This document shows positions 1-61,733 of a stretch of DNA of 64,000 nt, in pieces. The position numbers and the translations under genes were made by a program. The notes beneath the pieces were generated by a model. The model had not been told where the DNA came from. It saw only the letters and a program-made list of their open reading frames with translations, and ran no database searches. Numbering within the stretch: position 1 is the stretch's first letter; every line of letters starts with the position of its first letter. Source of the stretch: Centroberyx gerrardi (lineage: Eukaryota > Chordata > Actinopteri > Beryciformes > Berycidae); assembly GCF_048128805.1 (NCBI RefSeq), contig NC_136012.1, positions 16,779,725 through 16,843,724 on the forward strand. Reading direction: 5' to 3'.

Positions 1-955
1 GATACCATCTCATTCACTCTTTGTTATCTCCCCTGTCGGTAAAACCTTGTGCGCATGCCAAAAACTGGTGTGACTTTGGATGCTGATCTTAACTTCCAGA
101 AGCACATATCTAATATCTCCAAGAATGCCTTTTATCATCTTAGGAATATATCTAAAGTTAGATGCTTCCTGTCACAGTCAGATTCTGAAAAGCTGGTTCG
201 TGCTTTTATTTCCTGTAGACTTGATTACTGTAATGCACTTTTTGCTGGACTGACAAAGCAGGTGTTAAATAAACTCCAGCTTATTCAGAATGCTGCAGCC
301 AGAGTATTAACTAAAACCAAAAGGTTTGAACACATCACTCCTATTTTAACTTCTCCCAGTAAAACAAAGAATTGATTTTAAAATACTTCTTATTGTTTTT
401 AAATCTATGAATGGCTTAGCTGCTTCCTACGTCGTTGACATGCTCACTGAATACACACCGGACAGATCCCTTAGATCATCAAATAAAGTCTCCTCACTAT
501 ACCTTGAATAAATTCTAAATCAGCTTATGGTGCCTTTAGTCATTATGGTCCTACTCTCTGGAATTCTCTACCACATGAACTAAGGTCTGCTACAACAGTG
601 TCTTCTTTTAAAAACAGACTAAAAACATATCTCTTTTCGCAAGCTTTTAGTTAGGTTTAAAGTGTGTGGTTAACGGGAAAACTTTTATTTTAGAATCAGT
701 ATTATTACTATTATTCCCTTTTTAATACCTGCTTATCTTATTCCTTTTTATTGTAATACCTTCTTATCTTATATGTTTGTATCTTTTTTTTTTGTATATA
801 TGTAATACCTTCTTATCTTATATGTTCCTATCTTATATGTTTTTGTCATGTATGATCTTTGTCTATTTTTTGCTTTTTATTTTGAAGCACATTGAGTCTA
901 CGCCTGTCGTATGAAATGTGCTATATAAATAAACTTGACTTGACTTGACTTGACT
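1..955 (+). mobile_element. Truncated L2-type LINE, 3' end
   Basis: This is the 3' end of a non-LTR retrotransposon of the L2 kind common in fish. The frame at 49-375 encodes the end of a reverse transcriptase, including the family-typical stretches LDYCNALFAGL and LQLIQNAAARVL. The frame breaks near 350 and related peptide (KQRIDFKILL...VFKSMNGLA) continues in another frame to about 510, after which stops appear, so the copy is dead. The 3' UTR ends with an AATAAAC-like stretch and the short direct repeat (ACTTG)n at about 930-955, which is typical of L2 tails. The 5' part lies outside the window or was never inserted. Confidence 0.85.
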
Positions 956-21500: not shown

Positions 21501-24500
21501 GGGACCATTCTACCCTCAAGTCCACCCCTGGTTCTAGTATCTACTCGGAAATTAATCTCAGAAAGAAATTTAAAAAACATATTGCCATTAATTCTGTCAA
21601 TTGTGTTGAACTATTATTTTTATTGATTATAAAAAAAAGTGTCACAAAAACAGAGGAGATCTAGATTACCATGTTCACTTGCAGAGGCTGTGATAGCAGT
21701 GTAAAGTGAAAAGATGATTTACATGACATATTGATTTGTATAACATTGAATGTTTTTAGTAATCAACCCAAGAAAATCAAGTTTATCACTGTGGTTGCCT
21801 TACTTAAAACGAGGAAAGTATATTGATAAGGTATAAAGTAGGCTGCTTTTGAAGAGACATCGATGGATGATTTTGGTTTCCATATTCTCATCACTTAACG
21901 GGTAAGTCTCCCAAAAACTTGGTGTATTCCTCTATGACCAAATTACTGGCCCTCTACCTCACCAGTTATTTCTAGTAGTGTCTCACCCTGCTGTGGATCT
22001 CTTCACTGACAGTAGGCAGCGCTCTCTTCTTCCTCTTCACCTCCAGCAGCTCCACTAGCGGCTTTATAGTCATCCCCTAGAGACCAGAGAGGACCAGACT
22101 CAAAAAAAGAACCCGAAAAATACCCTATAAAACCAAACAACAGCAAAACAAAAACAAAAACTACCACATGAAATAGAGGAACTGATCTTTTCCTCAAATG
22201 TCATATATGTGATAGTCTTCTCCTAACCTGTACAAACACAGTGAAGAGGATGACTACAATAGTTGTTGTGATGAAGAGCCTCTTCTTTGGGAAGTCATCA
22301 ATGAGGAAGACCAGGGAGAAGCAGATTGCCCCTCTCAGGCCACCGTAGGCGATGATGAACTGATCCCTAAACGTCACAGCGTTCCTCCGGAGCTTGTTCA
22401 CCACAGCAGTCAGCAACAGAACGCCTTGAGAGGAGGGGAAATGAGTTGAATCTCCCATTAATATACTGCTGATTAAGTTCTTGGCCAGAGTTAATTTGCA
22501 TTGATCATTTGTACGAGAACTCTGTTGGTGGGAATAGCAAACGTCTAGAAGTGAGCTTGTAACTAGACAATGTGGAAGAGTAACATTTACCTTTAACCTG
22601 TTTGAATCATATGAACCTTTAACCTTTAGAATTATAATCATGTCTTTAATCTTTTAAGACCCAATCACTTATCCTTGAATCTTCAGTTACAATTGGTTTA
22701 AGTCACACGTCCCGCTTTGTACGTCACGTTCCTTCTTTGTTCCACTTTGTACTGGTCATTCACTGCTGCAAGTTATCTGTTTCAAGGCCAAGTACGTCTA
22801 TTGTTTGTTTCACACTATATATTCAACTGCATTTCTCTATACGGTGTGTAGCCTACTTGTTAGGCAGGCTCTGACTTTGTATGCTAACCCATACGTATGC
22901 AATAAAGAAGCTATATTACTCTTTGACACTCCTAATCAGTCCTGATTTCCTCAACAACAGTCGCCAGGGGAAATCAGGGTGAGAGACTGCTTCCTTCTTG
23001 GATAACAAATGTACTGTCGACTTGCCCTTAAGCAAGGCACTTAAACCCTCACTGTTCTGCTAAAGTTGCTCAGTGGCCAACTGTGGAAATACTGGGCCGC
23101 TCCCAGGTGCTGTATAAATGTCTGTAACTGAATGAGTGTGAAGCAGGGTCATGCTGAAAAAGAGTGTATTTCCAAATCTTCCCTGAGTAAATAAAGGGGT
23201 AAAAAATAAAATATGATAAACACGAAGCAGCACCAATTACAAGTGCAGGATATGTTTCAAAGCCTCATGTCCGTACCTGTGGCCCTCCAGACGAGGCAGA
23301 GCAGCAGCGTGGAGCAGACGAAGGGCCAGCTCCACATGTGGACATCCTGTATGGTGGACACGCCCAGGAAGATGAAGATCAACGTTTCACTCACGCTGCT
23401 CCACATCTTCAGGAAGTACTGGATGCTGGTGTTGCTGCGCTCTGACACGTTGGCCTCCACATACTGCTTCATGGTCACAGCGCACGTCACTATGCTGGGG
23501 GAGGAAAGGGGGAAAAGACGCACCAAGATATGAGATATGACCAATTTGACTTTACCAGACAAATCAATCAGTAAAGGTGATCTGTGTTGCAGCAGCACTC
23601 ACGCCATGATACCAGAGAGGTGAAGCATCTCCGAGGTCAGGTAGGACAAATACGAATAGAGGAAGACGAAGAGCGGGGCGATAACCTGGGCTCTGGAGGT
23701 GAACCGCGAGGTGAGGGCCGCCACCAGGCCGAAGAACAGGCCTACAAACAGGCCGCCCAGACCCACCACCACCACCCTGCACCCCCCCAGCAGCACATCC
23801 AGCCCCGACACCGACGGCAGACGGAGGAAGGACTCAAACAGCTTGTATAGCACCTGGGAGAAAGAGAAAGAAGTGGAGGTAAAGTGTTTTATTTCAACCG
23901 GAAATACAAAAACTCTCACTACTTGAAGAACCTTTCTCTTCCGTACACACACACACACCACCTCCCCCCCTCACCACAGTGACGGCGTCATTGAGCAGCG
24001 ACTCCCCGAACACCAAGATATGTAACTGTTCGTTCACGTGGATCTCCTGGAAGACGGAGAGCACGGCCACCGGGTCCACGGCTGCGATCAGGGAGCCAAA
24101 CAGCAGGCAGTGGAGCAGAGAGACGTCTCCCAGAGAGCCGTGGGCCAGCAGACACACACCATACAGAGACAGGCCGATGCCCAGCACGTTCCATAGGGTT
24201 CCCAGCACCGCATACCTGGAGAGAGGCATCAGGCTCAGCTGCATTGCCAAATACGGGAATGATACTGACTCAGCCTCTGCAAGTCCCTCTGGATAAAAAA
24301 CACCAGCTAAATGCTTAAAATGTAGGTTTAAAATGTAAATGATACTGCATCCTGCCATGCTATAAAGTGTATTCAACTAGGTCCAACTCTTAATTTTTGC
24401 ATACACACGCACACACACATAAAGAAATAAACACACTGACAGTCCACCTACCAGAGGATGGTGCCAAGGTTCTCGAAAAACAGCCGCCCCGGCAGGAAGT

Positions 24501-31460: not shown

Positions 31461-32629
31461 TCACTGCAGATGAGCACTCTCAGTCTCTGAAATCCGTAGC
31501 ACGGGGGAGCTAAAGTTGGATGAGCAGGGAGCTAAATTCTGTGTACTCAGATAACTAATCTTCTTGCCACCTTCCCCTGCTGGCCCGTCTTCCAGCCCAG
31601 CCTCCAGTGAGTCTGGTCCCTGCCGCTGGCTGCTTGGCTGCGGCGGAGGCACCAGGCCGTGCAGGAGGCTGTTCCCCAGATGGGAGTTGCATCGGGCCAG
31701 GCTGTCCGTCAGATGCTGGAGGTACACTTCTTCCAGCTGCTTCTCCAAAAGCCCGTTCAGCACAGAGTTAGACATAGGCTCCAGTCCTGACCCAGGCAGA
31801 TCCAGGCTGGTGGTTACACTGGCCCCCATAACCAGATAACCCTGGTCAGGTACTGAAGACCCCAGCTCCCCTTGCTGCTGCTGGTGGTGGTTAATGCGTA
31901 CTGAATGACAGGGAGCTCCAGAGAGAGGGGGCTGAGCTGAAGAACCGTACCCAGGAATGCTGCCTCTCAGTGGGCTGGGTGGGTCACCCAGCTCCCCCGT
32001 CTCCTGCCCCAGCCGTAGGTCTGGATAATGTTGCAGGAGACTACAGGAGTCTAGGCCAACTGACAGGTCAGGGTCCAGGGTGACGACTGGTGAACAGCCA
32101 GGGATTGAGACACCAACAACAGTCTGAGACACTACACTCAGTCCCTGGCTTTGGGTGGGGCCTAGCTCTTCCTTGTTTGGACCTGTTCACAAAAAATAAA
32201 CTGATTACTGAGATGTTTTTTGTTTTTGTTTTTTACATTTTTGCTATATGGTAAGAAATCATCGTTAAGATTAATATTACATCTGACAAAAGAAGAAATA
32301 ATTTCTATTTCTATCCGAGGGACCAAGGGGATCTAGATTGCGTCAAGTTAAAGTTCATGTATGTGAGTCCATATGGCAAGTTAGACCTCACATTACATCA
32401 GTCGGTAGTTTGCTATATATATTACAACATTTGGGTGGGGGTAGTAGTATTATGGCTCCTTACCTGGTGCTGTTGAAAGTGTGTGTGGGCCTGAGTTTGA
32501 GCCAGGGGGAACTCCGTTGAAAGGATCCATACGGTGACTTTGTGTCTGTGTTCTGTGTGTCTTGGTAGCAGAGACGAGCCTTCTCTCCTCCCTGTACCGC
32601 AGCACTCTGAGAAACCCTTCGCCCAGCAT
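31461..32629 (-). CDS. tasl: TASL (CXorf21)-like IRF5 adaptor, 2 exons, 295 aa
   Basis: Coding exons 32629-32464 and 32182-31461 (minus) join in phase across a 281-base GT/AG intron, giving 295 residues; human TASL has about 301. The N-terminus MLGEGFLRVLRY matches the family pattern of human MLSEGYLSGLEY, the segment known to bind the lysosomal transporter SLC15A4. Near the C-terminal third, NSVLNGLLEKQLEEVYLQH matches the conserved TASL helix. The end reads SSPVLRISETES: L-x-I-S at residues 284-287 corresponds to the pLxIS motif that recruits IRF5 after phosphorylation. The residue before L is Val rather than the usual hydrophilic residue. The middle is low-complexity Ser/Pro/Gly/Gln. The role, inferred from the family, is to couple endolysosomal TLR7/8/9 signalling to IRF5. 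The upstream ATG was chosen because it gives the SLC15A4-binding motif. Human TASL coding sequence is, as I recall, in one exon, so the intron is notable. Confidence 0.8.
31488..31502 (-). other. pLxIS-type motif codons (VLRIS)
   Basis: These codons encode Val-Leu-Arg-Ile-Ser nine residues from the stop of the TASL-like protein. In STING, MAVS, TRIF and TASL the Ser of this motif is phosphorylated and docks an IRF. Confidence 0.6.
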
Positions 32630-34267: not shown

Positions 34268-43384
<9,117 letters not shown>

Positions 43385-44628: not shown

Positions 44629-47196
44629 ATGCCCAAGAGAAAGGTATGTATTCTGAAAATAATGAAAATTGTTTGGTTGGAATATCAGCTATTAATGCAA
44701 TGCAAATGATTGTGAAGACATCCCTCTGAGACATTACTTAATTATAACCTAATTTATAACGTCTCTACATCGCTGATAATTTTTGCCTATTTTCTAGATA
44801 TAATGTATATTTTTTTTGTGTTGGAATGAATATTTTCCTGCTCGGGCACAGGCTATAAATCCTGTTTTCTCCTAACAGCCGCTGTCCTTTGGGGAGTCAG
44901 AAGTCTCTTTCGGTCTCCATGCAGTTAAAGCACAAGCAGCAGCCATGCTTTGCAGCTCTTGTCCACCTTCCTCGCCGACCTACCGAGAACAAACGCTTCA
45001 CTTATCGCCAATCGGCCCTCAAACCGCCTAAAAGTGTCACTAGAAAATGCATTAGTGCCTTTACTTTGCATTTTGACCGCAAAAACAAACATTTGCCGTC
45101 GCATTTCGATAAAATTATATATTTTCTCTCTTTGTTCGTAGTCCCAAATGGCTGCGATGGCGTGGCTCTGCCGCGTGGTGGCGCCGCTGAGTCTTAGCTG
45201 GTCCCTCCCCCTCTGAAAGCCTCCCGCGCCAGCTTTCAAATCTGAGCTCCATGCACTGAATGAGAGAAAGAGATGGGGGAGTAAAAGAGAAAAGCAGGGC
45301 CTGGGCCCTCAAAATCTGGGTTCAGAAGCCCACATGGCTCTGCTCTCACAGCCTATTTCTGAAATAACGCACTAACCCAAAATTTCTGGGTTATAATCCT
45401 TTAAAACTATGTGTTTTGGAAATAAATTTGTGTTTTCATATGAAACTAAAAAGTTTTCTCAACTGCTTTGTGATTACTCGTAATATGTGCCTGAAGCATT
45501 TAGCAAATGCTTATTGTTAATATAAAGGCCAGTAACTCTCTAAATGCTACTAATTTTTCTTTACTTTGATTTAACCTTTTATATTTGTGTTTTTCATTTG
45601 CAGGGAACAGATGAGGCCAAGGAGGAGGTAAGAGGAGGGCACAATAAATTACACATCATAGATTTGATTAAATAAAATTTTAATCAGTATGTGAGATATT
45701 CCAGGGCTTTTTCAAGAATAAAGTATGTTTGTATAGAATTCAAAGGTACAGTGTTGTGAATACAGTCCTAATCTAAATAAAGAGCCCATGATAACCATTT
45801 TTGTTCTGTTTCAGCCCAAGAGGAGATCAGCTCGGTTATCAGCGGTAAGAAGCTTTACATACAAACTCACCACTGCTCATTTACATTCACAGAGGCAGTT
45901 AGTAAACATATGAAAGCCAGTAAAAACCTAAAAAGTAGTCACACACATGTGACTAATTAGTTAACCTGTTAAGTAACAGAAACAAAAGAAACAAAAGCAA
46001 GTGTACAACTAGCTTTTATTTTAAAAACCTACTTTAATTTGATTTGCAGCAATGAAAAACTACAAAACACATGATTTTTACATAATAAACTTTAAAAACT
46101 AGTTAACAGTATTTAAAAACTCAAGTAGAGCTGCAGACAATAGTAAAGTTTACTAAATCACATCAGAATTGAATATAATTTCTTATAAAGCTTACATAAT
46201 TACTTAACACACAGTTGAAACCTGATGAACAATTACTTTATAGCAAGTAAGACCTGCTGGTCTGGTAATTAACAAATAAGCCGATGTATCCAACTCTAAT
46301 ATCGACATATTACAAATTAATGGCATAATGAAGAGATTCAGAATAATTAAAGTTATGTTCTGCAATTTTACAAAACATTTCTGCTCAGAGACGGTTTAAA
46401 TTCCACAGTTAACTCATTTACGAAGGATCATCTTAATGTTAGAAGGCTTGAAACAAACAGCCGCTTCAGTCAACAGGCTTCTTATGTGTTTTTATTGGAA
46501 GAGGTTTCCATTCAAGAATCACTATCTGTCCTTGATTCTTTGCTGCCCATTTAAAAACTGCATCAAAGGAGCCTTCAGTCTTCCAGTGCCTTTTAGAGGC
46601 AAAAAAAAAGAGATTGTAAAATAGTCAAGAAAGAAATTGCGTATTTAAGTACAACTGTTTTATCCCTGTTTCCCTCCTTTTTTTCCCCACAGAAACCGGC
46701 CCCACCCAAGCCGGAACCAAAGGTTAAGAAGGCAGCAAAGGTAAGAGATTGAGATACTTTTCCGGTTCTTAATTTCAGTCTCTACACCCCCACAACAAAG
46801 ACTTAGCTGAACTAGGGGGGGGGGGGGGAACAACAGGTAGTGTGAGTATTGAATATTCAGCCTGCTAACGGCCCGTTCTGTGACCCTCGCAGAAAGAGAA
46901 GGCAGTGAACGACAAGAAGGAGGACAAGAAGACCAAGAAGGCGAAGGAGAATGCCGAGGCAGAGGCCAACGAGGAAAACCACTCTGAGAATGGAGAGGCC
47001 AAGACCAACGAGGTGTGTAGACTTAAAAACTTCATCCATCCAACACTTTTACACCTTAGACTTTGGGATAAACACCAGAGCAACAGTCGTAGAAACTCTG
47101 TGTGGAGTTCTGTGTCGTGACCTTGTCCTCTCCCCCTCCGTCCCGCAGGTGGAGGCAGCTCCTGAGGAGGCCAAGGAGGAGGCCAAGTCCGAGTAG
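44629..47196 (+). CDS. HMGN nucleosome-binding protein, 6 exons, 94 aa
   Basis: Coding exons 44629-44643, 45604-45627, 45815-45844, 46693-46740, 46893-47012 and 47149-47196 are all phase 0 with GT/AG introns. The 94-residue product begins MPKRK, carries the nucleosomal-binding signature PKRRSARLSA followed by KPAPPKPEPKVKKAAK, then a Lys-rich bipartite region and an acidic C-terminus (SENGEAKT, EEAKEEAKSE). The six-exon layout and length fit the HMGN family, which binds nucleosome cores and loosens chromatin against linker histone. The neighbouring SH3BGRL suggests correspondence to human HMGN5, but the long acidic tail of mammalian HMGN5 is absent, so I leave the symbol blank. The 3' UTR runs to a poly(A) signal at 47975-47980. 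Confidence 0.93.
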
Positions 47197-55300: not shown

Positions 55301-57058
55301 TACAATTACTGAGTGGAGTAGAGGACCACCTGATGCCCCTTTTGCACATATATTCACTCTCAAAGCATTCACACACACACACACACACACATACAAACAG
55401 TACATTCATTCACATACTCTCTCGCTCCCCCTCCCCCCCTCCTCTCTCTCTCCCTCTCCCTCTCTCCCCTTTCAGTCTCACACCTCACGCACCATATTCT
55501 CCTCACATTCACACATTGTTGAGCCCTGCTGTGTTGCGTAGACTGTGCGTCACTCGGGTCCAAATGCATCTGAAGGACAGGTGATTTGTGATAAGAGGCC
55601 TCACACAGACAGCATTTCACAGCTCTGGGTCCCTCTCCTGGGCGCCATCGTGATTTGACGTTCACGCTTAAGTGGATTATTGCAATGTGCAATCATGGGG
55701 AGGGCGTGAGCTGTACGATATGTAGTTTTGGGGAAGAGGAGGCGGGGTGTAGTGAATAAGAATGGAGTAAGAAGGCAAGAAAGGTGACAAAAGTGAGATC
55801 GGAGTTCTCGTTACAGCTAGGGCTTAGTTACTTTGAAAGAATTCAGTTTTTCTCACATCTGTGGGTTTGTTGAGTTTATTTTATCAAAATGTACATGAAT
55901 AAACTACAACAAAGGACTACATTAAAGAAGACATCAAAACAGGCAGCAATAACAGGGGTCAACAACTGAACACACTCCCAACCCAGCCCCAGGCCCACCC
56001 CATTACACCCCCAGTGCAGTGATATAAAGACATGCCAACCATGTCTCACATTTAGGCACTTGATTTCCCTACCAAACCATCTTTGGTCATAGTCGCTGTT
56101 GCACGGCTTTAAACTTAGATTCAAACAGGTTTGAGGTGAATTTGAACTTGTCTCATGTTGATTCTGACTGTGTGGTTTAGTGGATGCTGATTCATGCTGA
56201 GAGGAGTCATACACGTTTCAATGTAAATCCTTCAGTTTAGACAGATCGTTCTGTGTCTGCCATGTTTAGAGATGACCCAAAGATGGCTATAACCTGACCA
56301 CCTCCGTTAAGTAAACTTTAGCATAAGTAAATCAGAACACTAGCTGGTACAGTACTTCACATGATTACGGAAAAGGACTCCACGAGAGAAAGGAATCAAG
56401 CACTACATTTTAACACGATTTACCTGAAAACAATACAGTGTATTTGTACACAATATACTGTATTCAATAAGCTGTACAGTCTATTGCAAAGGCATTGTTA
56501 TTGGCATTTTTCTGTAGGTACGAGCCAGTCTGTTTACCAGTGAGTAATGTCTTGGAAATTCTTGCAAAAATAGATCAAATTTTCATATCTTTTACTAAGT
56601 TATGAAAAGCCTTTGCTTTGACTTGGGGATGTGATCTATATATTTAGCTATTCATGCAATGTCTTACTTTGTGTGCGTGTGTGTGTGTGTGTGAGTGTGT
56701 GCATGTGTGTGTGTGTGTGTGTGTGTGTGCATGTATGTGTATTTGTCAGTGTATGTATGTGCATGCATGTGTGTGTGTTTTGATGAAGGTACTGTACACA
56801 CTGGTAGACTTATCCCTCAATATTTTTTTTTTCCAGAATACATCCCCTTCAGTAAAGGAATAACAAAGTTACATTAAACTGTTTAAGAAGCATAGTACTC
56901 ACACAGTATTTGGCAGTGAGAGAACAGTCCTAATTTATCCATGCACAATATCAACCACAGGCGAGGTCCACATTCTGAACAAACCCATTAAGAACAACAC
57001 AGTAAGAACATGAAAAGGGTGAACAAGGATTCAAGAACCTGGAAGTGTGTGTGTGTGC

Positions 57059-57101
<43 letters not shown>

Positions 57102-57440
57102 TGCGAATGTCAACACCACAGCTGGTTTCCCGGGGAGACCAAAGGGCTGTGACTCATACGGTGCATACAGCATTTCCTGGAATTTGAACAATATCGGAAG
57201 AATTATTATTTTCCCACAAAGCCAAGATAATTACATATAATCATGTTAGAACCTTACAGAGTAGTTAGTGAGTCTATAGTAAAAACCCACTCAATCCCAC
57301 CCCCATAGGTCTATTATAGACCAAACAGTTTATCCCTGGATTATATTTCCATTTTCCTGCTTTCACAATGGCAAGCACCTTCCCCTTGTTTTTTTTGTTT
57401 GTGTGTGAATGTGTTTGTGTGTGTGTGTTTTGAATGTGTT

Positions 57441-60400
57441 TTAGACTAGTCCAGTCTGTGTGTGCAGGTGCAAGGGGTAAGGTTGGTACAGCAGAGTTGA
57501 TCCTCCTTGGGGTATGTAGTAGCTGCAGTAGCTGGGTTCTGCTAGGTAGGGGGCACTGTGCTCGGCAAGGTACGGGGCAGGCTGGTAGAAGCACGTGACG
57601 TGGTCTGTGTTGGGGATAATGTTCTGCTCTCCTAGAACCTTCAGCGCCAGCACTGTGATCATGTTCAGCGTCTGCCGCCTCTCGTGTCCCATCAGACACA
57701 CCGTGCTGTCGTCCACCACGCGGCGCAGCGTCATCAGGTACTGGTACTTACTTCTCTCCTCTCCGATGAAGTGGTTCTTCAAGTAGGACAGGATCTTCCT
57801 CTGCTGCTCCTGCACGTCGGGGAAATCTATGAAGAAGCGCGAGCACATGTAGCGCTCCAGTGTCTTAATCTGAGTCTCGCTGGCTGGTCGGTAGTCCCTG
57901 ACTAACAGGTTGCTGTATTTCAACAGACCGCCACCTCGAATCTCCTCAGGATTCCTGGTGGCAATCAGACGGTAGCGCAGGTGGTCCATGGCTGCCTCAA
58001 AGTCACCGTACATGCTCTCTGCCAGGACCTCGACCGCAGGGACCGAGCCAGATGCCCGTGGAGCTTTGCTCTGTTCAGGCATGTCTGCGGTTACCTTGGG
58101 GGCCTCTTTGTTCTCAGGCACAGAGCTGGATGCCTCAGTGGCTTTCGGCGGGGCTGATTCCCCTGTCTCTCCGGGCTGCACGTCTGAGGTGGAGCTTGGG
58201 ATTGTGAGTGGAAATGAGACAGGCTCTGGAACCCGAGGCAATGATGAGATATTATCTTGTTCCTTTTCATCCTCCGACAGTAGGAGAGGTACGTCTGGCT
58301 GAGGGGAAGACTGTATAATCTGGCCCTCACTCTCTGTGTTCAGTATCAAAGGCTCCAGGTCTGAAGATACCTGAGGTACAAGGTCCTCTGACTCCACCGG
58401 CGGAGTGAGGCAGAGGAGGGGTGGGCTGAGGCAGGGGGAAGGGGGACTGAGGCAGGGGGAAGGGGGGCTGAGGCAGGGGGAAGGGGGGCTGAGACAGAGT
58501 GGAGGAGGGCTGAGGCTAAGCATAGGAGGAGTGAGGTAGGGAGGTGAGCTGAGGCTGGACGAGGTAGGGCTGAAACTCAGGGGAGGAGAGCTAAAACTGG
58601 GAGGAGGGCTGATGCTCAACATAGGAGAAGTGAGGCAATGGGAGGGAGGGGTCAGACATGGGGGAGGGCTGAGGCTGCGGGGCGAGGGAGTGAAGCAGGG
58701 AGGAGAGAGACTGAGTACGGGAGGGGTGAGACAGGCAATGGGAGGGGTGACAGAGTGGAAAGACGGAGGTGAGCTGGGGGCGGTCTCTTTCTCAACAGCC
58801 ACTGACAGGCTGCTGGGTGGCTGATCCAAGTCCATGGTTTTGGCCTGTAGTTCTCTGTTCTCATCCTCATCACTGAGCTCTGCCTCTGAGGTATGTGTGG
58901 GATCCTGGGTGTTTGTGTCGCATTTATCAGTGTGAGAACCTAATGTGTCTAGTGAGTCAGGAGGCTCTGATGTTTTGGCCGGAGATGAAGTTTCACTAGG
59001 GGCACAGGAGGAGGACTCTATCTGACTTTGTTCATCACAAGCCACCTGTGTAGATAGTGCCTCTTTCAGGTTCAGAATAGCTGTTTGACATAAAACCTCG
59101 GTGGTTAGCTGGGAAGATGATCGCTCTTGAGGTAAAGCAGGCATGGGATCTACAGTGGAGATGGGGCTTAGATCAGGGGCTGGATCGGGGGCTGAGATGA
59201 GGTCTAGGTTTGGAGCCAGGTCAGGGGAAGGGTTGGATTTAGGCTCAGGGTTTATTTTGGTAGGGATAGTGGTTGTGGTGGTAGGGGCAAAGTCTGGGCT
59301 GGGAGCTGTAACGGGGTTGGACATAGTGCTTGGTTCTGGGTTAAAGGCTATCTCAGGTTCAGGGCTAGGGCTAGGATTTGGATCTAGACTGGCAGCTATC
59401 ACAGGTTCAGTTTCAGAGACCGGGTTGGGGTTGGGGTTTGGCGTAACCTTCCTACACATCCTCCGAGGGGGTTTAGGAGAGGAGTGTTTGAGCACCACCA
59501 TCTGAGATAGTCTACTTGAGGCTTTACCAGGGGGAAGAGAGGAGGTCTTTTTGTCTGAAACAAGGCCGGGTGGTGCAGGTAATATATCCTGAGTGTCTGG
59601 TGGGTTTACTGTGTCCAGTGTGTTGGCTGTTTTTTCTGAGTTATCTGTGTGTAGTGTCTCCAGTGTATGCTGTGTGCCAGTAGGCTCTGTGTTGTCTGCT
59701 GGAAATGTAAGAGATAAGGAGGAGGTGGAGCAGGAATCATCTACAGCCAGTGTCTGTTCTATATCCTTTTCTTCTGTTGTTGAAATCTCTTCTGTCATTT
59801 CAATTATTTCTGCATCATTTTTCCTCTCTGCTTGTATCTGCTTCCCTGTCTCTATTTCCATTTTTCTCTCATCGTCTAAGTGTGTATGCGTCTCTATCTC
59901 TGCATGTGTAGATGTGCTAGTGTCTGGAGCAGACAAGTGTTGTGTTTTATCTTCCTCATTGCTTCTCTGATCCTCACTAAAACACTCTGTGAAGTCTGTT
60001 TTATCTGAGTGTTCTTTACTGTGCGATTCTTCCGCCAGGTTTAAGGACTCTGTCTGGGTTGGGTCGGGGTTTTCTGGCGGTTCTGAGCATCCCATCTGGT
60101 TTATGAGTTCTTTGTGTTCAACAAGGGGTTCGGGCTGGTTAGGCGGTTCTGTCTGGACAGAGGGTTCCTCGTGATTTGAATGTGCTGATTGTTTACCATC
60201 AGAAAGCTGGGTTTCTTCTGAGCACTCTACCTGCGCGGAGCATTCGGTCTGGTCTGGAACCTCCGGGTCCTGTTTGACTTCTGCCTGACTTGGTGGTTCG
60301 GCTTCGTCAGAGTGTTGTTTCTCTTCTAAGAGAGGGCCTACAGGTGTCTGCTCAGAGATGTCCACCTCTTTGACGTTTTCTCTGTGTTCTGAGGGTTCTT

Positions 60401-61733
60401 TCAGTTCTGCGAGTTCCTTCTGCTTTTTGTCTTCTTCCTGCTTGGAGTGTTTTGAATGCTCAGTCTGTTGTGAGAGTTCAGGCTGAGGTTCTTTTTCATG
60501 TGAGTCCTCCATCTCTTCGTTCTGTTCGGTCTGGTTGATCTGAGCCCCCTCGTTGCTGCACAACTCTCTACTAGTGGATTCCAGCCTCTCTGTTTGTGGA
60601 GCAGTGGCATGTTCAGGCAGAGAGAGAGAATCTTTGTTCTGATTCTCTACGGTCTGCTCCTTAAGGTCCATGCTATTGTCTATGTGCTGTGATTCCTGCT
60701 GCAGATAGGACTCCAGCAGACGGTCCAGAATGATCTGGAAGGAGTCGACGCTGAACTCAAACTGCCGTCTGAGCGCGCTCACAAACTTGAGCTCCAGGTT
60801 TTTGCCGCTGTTGTTGGAGAGGGAGATGAGGCTCCAGCGGTCGTGTTCATTGAAGACCTTGACCATCTTCTGGACGTAGGCCTCCTTCATTGTGGCGCTG
60901 CTGATCCTCTCTCTGTTGACCCCAGCAGGCAGGCAGTCCAGCAAGCAGCCCAGCACGGACTCCTTGATCACCTGGGAGGAGCACAGGTCAACACCATGAC
61001 AGCTATAACTAATGGTAGCAGTCTGACTGTTTTATTGCATGTATTATGGGACTGATATTGTGATACTCTTGTGGTTTACTTTCCAATAGAATGCAATTAA
61101 CCAATAGTAGTAGTATTGATTCAACCTTGTGATAAAATTGAATATATGAACTATTGGCATTGTCAATATAACACTAACAGAATTTATAGTGCAACACTGT
61201 AATACTTTATTGATCAGTGTATGGAAATTTGCTTGTCCCTCCTCTACAGAGAGGTCAGAGGTCAGGGTCAGCTGCAGAACAGCAGCCCTTGAGCTGGTAG
61301 GGATTCAGTGTCTTGCTCAAAGACACTTCAGCAGGGCGGATGCGTGCCAACCTGGAGGCTTGAACCCTATGCCACCATTCAATATAAGCAGTGCAGTATA
61401 TCACAGTCTCATTCATACCTGGAAATCCTCCTGTCTGGGCAGTTCCACACCAAAGATGATGTCCAGGTCCTTGTAGCTGGTTCCGTTGTCTCGGACTAGG
61501 ACGTGGCTGGCCGTGGAGCCGTTAAGGCGAACATCCCTCACTGTAATGCCCTGCTTCTCCAGCCTGGCCCGCACCGCCGTGATGATGTCACGAGGACGCA
61601 GCTCCAGCGTGGGGAAGTTCCCGCGGCCATGGATCGGAACCACCTCGGACAGAACCTGATCGAGAACCTCCACCTGCTCAGCGTTCAGGCTGTGGAATCG
61701 CTGGCTGGATCTGGTTTCAGACATGCTGCTGCC
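57441..61733 (-). CDS. TENT5 (FAM46) poly(A) polymerase with giant internal insertion, 2 coding exons, 1278 aa
   Basis: Coding exon 61724-61419 (the exon starts at a splice acceptor at 61733) joins in phase to 60971-57441. The protein is a non-canonical poly(A) polymerase of the TENT5 family, which extends tails of ER-targeted mRNAs. Catalytic features are intact: [26 protein letters not shown] (G69-S70) and DLDIIF (D86, D88), and the third acidic residue in NLELKFV (E162). Residues 132-192 ([10 protein letters not shown] to [13 protein letters not shown]) finish the N-terminal core. Residues 193-1078 are the insertion annotated separately. The helical C-terminal part resumes at [14 protein letters not shown] and holds [45 protein letters not shown] and NVT-type CFYQPAPY. 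Usual family length is about 390. Linkage to SH3BGRL and HMGN suggests the TENT5D locus of human Xq21, but sequence also resembles TENT5C and 5A, so no symbol is given. Confidence 0.85.
58044..60701 (-). other. In-frame about 886-codon low-complexity insertion inside TENT5
   Basis: The reading frame stays open for 2.66 kb between the two halves of the TENT5 core, where human TENT5C has a linker of roughly 14 residues. The first half is rich in Glu, Gln, Ser, Thr and His with motifs such as [17 protein letters not shown] and looks disordered and acidic. A basic patch, [10 protein letters not shown], lies near 59455. Next come NPNPNP and PEP-rich stretches, then from about 58800 to 58400 a Pro/Ser/Cys/Leu array of [11 protein letters not shown] type. 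No known domain, signal peptide or membrane segment is visible. The frame has no stop in 2.66 kb, which argues for coding use. Confidence 0.8.
58405..58500 (-). repeat. 21-bp tandem repeat encoding CLSPPSP units
   Basis: Plus-strand units of the form CTGAGGCAGGGGGAAGGGGG repeat about 3.5 times with 21-bp period. On the minus strand they encode seven-residue CLSPPSP units, and more diverged copies extend to about 58760. The period is a multiple of three, so copy-number change would keep the frame. Confidence 0.85.
61189..61390 (+). repeat. Dispersed fish repeat in TENT5 intron 1
   Basis: Contains TACTTTATTGATCAGTGTATG, GGAAATTTGCTTGT, GTCTTGCTCAAAGACACTTC and AGCAGGGCGGATGCGTGCCA, an arrangement I recall from a widespread teleost repeat. 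It sits between coding exons 1 and 2. Confidence 0.5.

Follow-up and report, generated by a model that had tools for sequence, protein, structure and literature searches.

The 64,000-nt stretch of Centroberyx gerrardi DNA analyzed here (hereafter the window; GCF_048128805.1, NC_136012.1, 16,779,725-16,843,724 of the forward strand) contains, on its minus strand, a gene of the TENT5 poly(A) polymerase family whose core is split by a long in-frame insert. All positions given below are window-based. In the predicted gene model, two exons join into a 1278-residue TENT5 poly(A) polymerase. Exon 1 (61419..61724, minus strand; 102 residues, MSETRSS...QEDFQ) encodes the first part of the nucleotidyltransferase (NTase) domain and matches PF07984 (E 1.3e-34 over 61420-61724), covering positions 1-89 of the profile. 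A predicted phase 0 intron of 447 bp (60972..61418, minus strand; CAG/GTATGA ... CTCCTCCCAG/GTG) separates it from exon 2 (57441..60971, minus strand; 1176 codons plus stop), which encodes the rest of the NTase domain, the insert, the helical domain and a C-terminal tail. Exon 2 matches PF07984 in two stretches (E 2.2e-110), the best of which covers profile positions 192-321 of 321. Both flanks of the insert match solved TENT5A, TENT5B and TENT5C chains in the Protein Data Bank (PDB): the NTase end preceding it (VIKESV...LLESYL; 60702..60971, minus strand) with E 1.4e-37 to 9.8e-32, best to TENT5B, and the helical domain with the C-terminal tail following it (ESMYGDF...; 57444..58019, minus strand) with E 5.2e-74 to 4.6e-61, best to TENT5C. 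The insert itself (58020..60701, minus strand) comprises 894 stop-free codons, with limits set by the alignable boundaries. An earlier note on this DNA, made from the letters alone, had described a TENT5 core in a single uninterrupted frame with an insertion of about 886 codons at 58044-60701. The core matches bear this out, the reading frame runs without interruption between 61031 and its stop at 57441 (1176 uninterrupted codons over 57441-60971), and the two estimates of the insert agree within 8 codons. Neither AATAAA nor ATTAAA is present in the scanned stretch 3′ of the stop (56700-57440), and the intron, compared as a repeat, has no match among the TENT5 loci compared.

Catalytic residues and the domain junction

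In FAM46A, the catalytic residues are named as Gly122/Ser123, Asp139/Asp141 and Glu215 (PMC10075960). Their equivalents in the window gene are Gly69-Ser70 of the GS motif (61515..61520, minus strand), the metal-binding aspartates of Asp86-Leu-Asp88 (61461..61469, minus strand) and the catalytic base Glu162 (GAG; 60792..60794, minus strand). All five residues are kept and every one of them lies upstream of the insert; the earlier note was thus right that the catalytic residues are preserved but wrong to place them on both sides of the insertion. On the other side of the insert, its end directly precedes the ESMYGD motif, whose Asp is D210 (boundary ESMYG/D) in the human TENT5D sequence. The human TENT5D truncations D210x and delta209, as described in PMC13291444, treat residues 209/210 as the boundary between the NTase and helical domains. 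Since the insert adjoins ESMYGD and the boundary falls at D210, it is located as an inter-domain loop at the NTase/helical junction. Judged from these conserved features, the window protein would be expected to act as a catalytically active poly(A) polymerase of the cytoplasm, with its two lobes folding together.

Open frame and composition of the insert

The frame of the insert contains 0 stops in 894 codons between LLESYL and ESMYGDF, against a mean of 35.9 and a minimum of 21 in 300 dinucleotide-preserving shuffles, so the open frame does not arise by chance. Read in its five alternative frames, the insert shows 16 to 60 stops, and the longest stop-to-stop frame in the window has 1196 aa, its runner-up 241 aa. 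The encoded sequence is rich in Pro (14.5%), Ser (14.4%), Glu (11.5%) and Thr (8.6%), contains one Tyr and no Trp, and begins acidic and Glu/Ser-rich, becoming Pro-rich with many Ser-Pro/Thr-Pro sites farther on. A tandem array of a 21-bp unit repeated 5.3 times (CLSPPSP; 58406..58516, minus strand) lies within it. By the relation of charge and hydropathy, the insert is disorder-like, with a mean hydropathy of 0.406 compared with a boundary of 0.453, and four of six sub-windows likewise fall on the disordered side. The ratio of observed to expected CpG is 0.30 in the insert and 0.37 in the whole window. A Pfam scan of the insert gave no family match, and a 60-residue piece, judged the least repetitive, found no second site in the host genome at E <= 0.01. 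We consider it probable that this segment at the domain junction is a disordered loop that evolves fast.

TENT5 paralogs and a sister gene with an insert

A search of the host assembly (778,876,752 bases in 278 contigs) with the helical-domain part as query gave 10 scored candidates, seven of which are TENT5 loci. The linker at the insertion point has 17 residues in five of the seven genes, including all TENT5A, TENT5B and TENT5C genes found, and 894 and 405 residues in the remaining two; the insert stands in the place of a short linker, as the earlier note had proposed. We take the short linker to be a variable and not a defining feature of TENT5. One scan each of viral_contigs and genome_contigs with the same query gave 0 and 13 pattern matches, respectively, none of the latter confirmed.

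The second gene with a long linker, L002, lies on contig C11 and reads as a single exon of 782 residues, contiguous where the window gene has its intron. Its insert occupies the same insertion point and runs for 405 codons with 0 stops (15.6 expected, minimum 7, in 300 shuffles). It resembles the insert of the window gene in its E/S/P/T-rich composition and also falls on the disordered side (mean hydropathy 0.404, boundary 0.443), with an observed-to-expected CpG ratio of 0.66. The cores of the two genes are identical at 139/192 positions in the N-terminal part and at 146/184 in the C-terminal part, and both parts are under purifying selection: nonsynonymous over synonymous divergence (dN/dS, NG86) is 0.19/2.49 in the N-terminal core (192 codons), where dS is near saturation, and 0.13/0.98 in the C-terminal core (184 codons). 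L002 keeps the GS motif and both Asp residues, but its residue 162, in the column of the catalytic Glu, is Gly (GGG), whereas the other six of the seven TENT5 genes have Glu. By its sequence, L002 is a possible pseudo-polymerase.

The match ends indicate that intron positions vary among the TENT5 paralogs: the intron lies between EDFQ and V in the window gene, after TLK in the TENT5A copies and near RQIV in the TENT5B copies, and none is seen in L002 and L003. These differing positions suggest intron gain or loss within this small family.

Phylogenetic placement and neighboring genes

In the tree, L004 and L006 group with the TENT5A chain (92/91), L005 and L007 with the TENT5B chain (84/82) and L003 with the TENT5C chain (95/91). 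Beside these three clades stands a fourth, made up of the window gene and L002, at 100/99 without a human TENT5D row; with this row included, the two genes and human TENT5D are separated from the other eight rows at 98/97. The length of this human TENT5D sequence, 389 residues, and its D210, I289 and F355 agree with PMC13291444. An identity as TENT5B, considered from a neighboring Na+/H+ exchanger exon (22228-22359, minus strand; PF00999), was rejected by the tree, in which L005 and L007 take the TENT5B chain (at only 84/82).

Two other neighbors bear on the identity of the gene. An SH3BGRL exon (35628..35801, minus strand; PF04908) has its best PDB match in 1u6t, SH3BGRL, ahead of SH3BGRL2, and a TASL-like exon (31617..31811, minus strand) matches PF15133 (E 2.4e-07; 31.2 bits, cut-off 27). 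TASL is an innate-immune adaptor that is X-linked in human, as are SH3BGRL and TENT5D, and the two exons would be consistent with a TENT5D neighborhood of this X type. From the clade with the TENT5D row and these possible neighborhood markers, we read the window gene and L002 as probable teleost TENT5D co-orthologs, and the window gene is most likely TENT5D. The SH3BGRL exon has a 100% match only on the contig of the window; its two weaker relatives are on C6 and C18, and C11 has none. For the Na+/H+ exchanger exon, five weaker matches occur at other places in the genome, none of them on C11. By these two exons, no neighbor common to the window locus and C11 was found.

Elsewhere in the window, a fragment resembling a long interspersed nuclear element (LINE) reverse-transcriptase C-terminus was noted by eye at 43-375 (plus strand), and an HMGN-like fragment at 46935-47006 (plus strand) scored below the Pfam cut-off (E 0.34).

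Proposed mechanism

We favor, with reasonable confidence, the reading that the window gene is a teleost TENT5D co-ortholog in which a long disordered loop has developed from the short linker, a reading based on the sequence of one fish genome. As a plausible mechanism, the linker between the catalytic NTase domain and the helical, FNDC3-binding domain would have become a loop of 894 residues here and of 405 residues in L002. If the window copy is translated as predicted, its NTase and helical lobes would fold together and, with the five catalytic residues present, form an active enzyme, while the loop would leave the domain junction and probably serve as a flexible arm that depends on its composition and not on its exact sequence. 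Such an arm might tune the location, binding partners or half-life of the enzyme, possibly under the control of proline-directed kinases. In human TENT5D, the C-terminal region is reported to set the endoplasmic reticulum location through FNDC3, and pieces lacking the NTase domain bind, although less (PMC13291444). Because the arm joins the catalytic and docking halves, it might influence which partners the enzyme chooses, where it is located or how stable it is.

Several results weigh against this reading. By charge and hydropathy, two of the six sub-windows of the insert (residues 793-942 and 943-1086) come out as folded, and AlphaFold2 modeling of the exon-2 protein without an alignment was uninformative (predicted local distance difference test score 35.5, predicted template modeling score 0.28). 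Ser/Thr-Pro sites are as frequent as composition predicts (33 vs 29.9 in the window insert, 4 vs 6.8 in the L002 insert), which leaves proline-directed regulation weakly grounded. The G+C content at third codon positions (GC3) is 0.49 in the insert of the window gene and 0.77 in its core, and 0.44 and 0.82, respectively, in L002; at about 0.3 below their own cores, the inserts do not follow the codon usage of the core. An excess at codon position 3 among the repeat copies, seen in overlapping pairs (75/71/160), was gone in two non-overlapping pairs (3/2/4), and was rejected as evidence after this control. The two inserts also lack significant similarity to each other: a gapped score of 124 was equaled or exceeded in 45 of 500 shuffles, and a composition-adjusted ungapped score of 16.2 in 228 of 400 local and 144 of 400 global shuffles. 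The case for a common descent of the inserts therefore depends on their position and character. The best ungapped match between the inserts, a 16-residue stretch paired with SPKLQRKMSRKTISKP, was considered as a conserved island and rejected on the same 228 of 400 shuffles. Finally, splice-like sites occur inside both inserts and pair in frame. Pairing of a donor scored 5.26, located 505 nt into the window insert, with an acceptor scored 7.3 would excise 1902 nt; in L002, pairing of a donor of 5.16 (+40 nt) with an acceptor of 4.13 (-128 nt from the insert end; a further acceptor of 4.25 lies at -58 nt) would excise 1047 nt. Either gene might thus lose part of its insert by splicing.

Alternative explanations

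The insert may instead be neutral filler, a length-tolerant linker enlarged by slippage, repeat growth and point change that needs only to leave the fold undisturbed; we give this explanation real weight, though somewhat short of an even chance. The very different lengths of the two inserts and their lack of detectable common sequence fit such an origin, as do the 21-bp tandem array and a GC3 close to the overall GC of the window (0.44). Longer internal exons are reported to gain insertions and deletions more often, most of them structure-less and half from tandem repeats (PMC12457776), and the insert of TUT1 is dispensable in vitro (PMC5467268). However, a long open insert persists in each copy, and the 17-residue linker in neither. 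Preservation of the frame does not decide the matter, since it is also expected of neutral filler within a constrained gene. It is also conceivable that each copy gained its insert independently once the gene had duplicated, and not by a single earlier event; this origin is compatible with the other readings, and we hold it to be rather unlikely. A separate origin would account for the absence of alignable sequence, the lengths of 894 and 405 residues and the missing intron of L002, but the inserts share their position in both members of the clade, which none of the five other paralogs found has, and their E/S/P/T-rich composition is similar.

An exitron or retained intron, from which all or most of the insert is spliced out to leave an ordinary or shortened TENT5D as the main product, appears improbable to us. 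The insert length is divisible by three, and the internal pairs described above are in frame. Splice sites were scored with simple matrices; on this scale, no donor within -60 to +150 nt of the insert start in the window gene exceeds -0.44 and no acceptor at the insert end exceeds 2.55, compared with 7.97 and 9.01 at intron 1. Full removal of the insert is unlikely in the window gene because its ends lack adequate sites, and 0 stops over 894 and 405 codons would be unexpected of an intron. We give almost no credence to an assembly error or a fusion of two loci, which the earlier note had raised as a refutation. The insert does lack matches to known families; against this, another contig has a second locus interrupted at the identical codon, both junctions are crossed by an open frame, no N occurs in the window, and the 60-residue piece matches only the window locus in the genome. 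That L002 has an insert at this same place speaks against both mis-assembly and a private accident, and makes the insert a feature of the gene pair and not of one locus. It is the strongest argument for genuine coding sequence over an assembly fusion. A bolder view, which we think unlikely, sees teleost TENT5D as two divergent machines built on a giant hinge loop, an active polymerase and a polymerase-dead partner, scaffold or competitor. In such a pair, the 894-residue arm would gather partners or form condensates with target mRNAs, and L002, lacking the catalytic Glu but with its core under purifying selection and a 405-residue loop of its own, would act at the same site.

Relation to known enzymes and significance

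The preferred reading, a TENT5D co-ortholog with a grown linker, can be set against known enzymes. The window protein shares with human TENT5D its core sequence, catalytic residues, phylogenetic group and possibly its SH3BGRL and TASL neighborhood, and the tail ends in QPYPLH where the human protein has QPYHPLH. It differs in having 1278 residues with 894 inserted, compared with 389 residues and a 17-residue linker in the human protein. Like TENT5A, TENT5B and TENT5C, it has the NTase and helical domains of PF07984, but all five A/B/C genes found in the host genome have the 17-residue linker. The size differences among human TENT5 members are described as lying in the termini (PMC13291444). 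The closest likeness outside the family is TUT1/Star-PAP (TENT1), whose polymerase core is broken by a proline-rich stretch, predicted to be disordered; without this stretch, the enzyme retains 96% of kcat/Km (PMC5467268). As reported there, TUT1 indicates that such a core can accommodate a predicted disordered, proline-rich stretch that is not needed for catalysis in vitro. However, it belongs to another TENT family, and its stretch lies in the palm domain, where 70 residues (235-304) were removed for crystals (PMC5467268), compared with 894 residues at the NTase/helical junction here. In agreement with the earlier note, which knew of no such architecture, we found no report of an internal TENT5 insertion among the papers listed, surveyed by title and abstract start; database gene predictions may already contain such proteins.

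TENT5 enzymes are reported to stabilize mRNAs of secretory proteins, and TENT5D has been associated with male sterility (PMC13291444); in the stickleback, Fam46d is reported to be differentially expressed in the brain with social housing (PMC4569571). A natural TENT5 enzyme able to accommodate hundreds of residues between its two domains would be a direct test of how these cooperate, and the window gene would allow a test of whether a poly(A) polymerase is steered by disordered loops. With the missing catalytic Glu of L002, the pair would also be a ready test of non-catalytic roles in this family.

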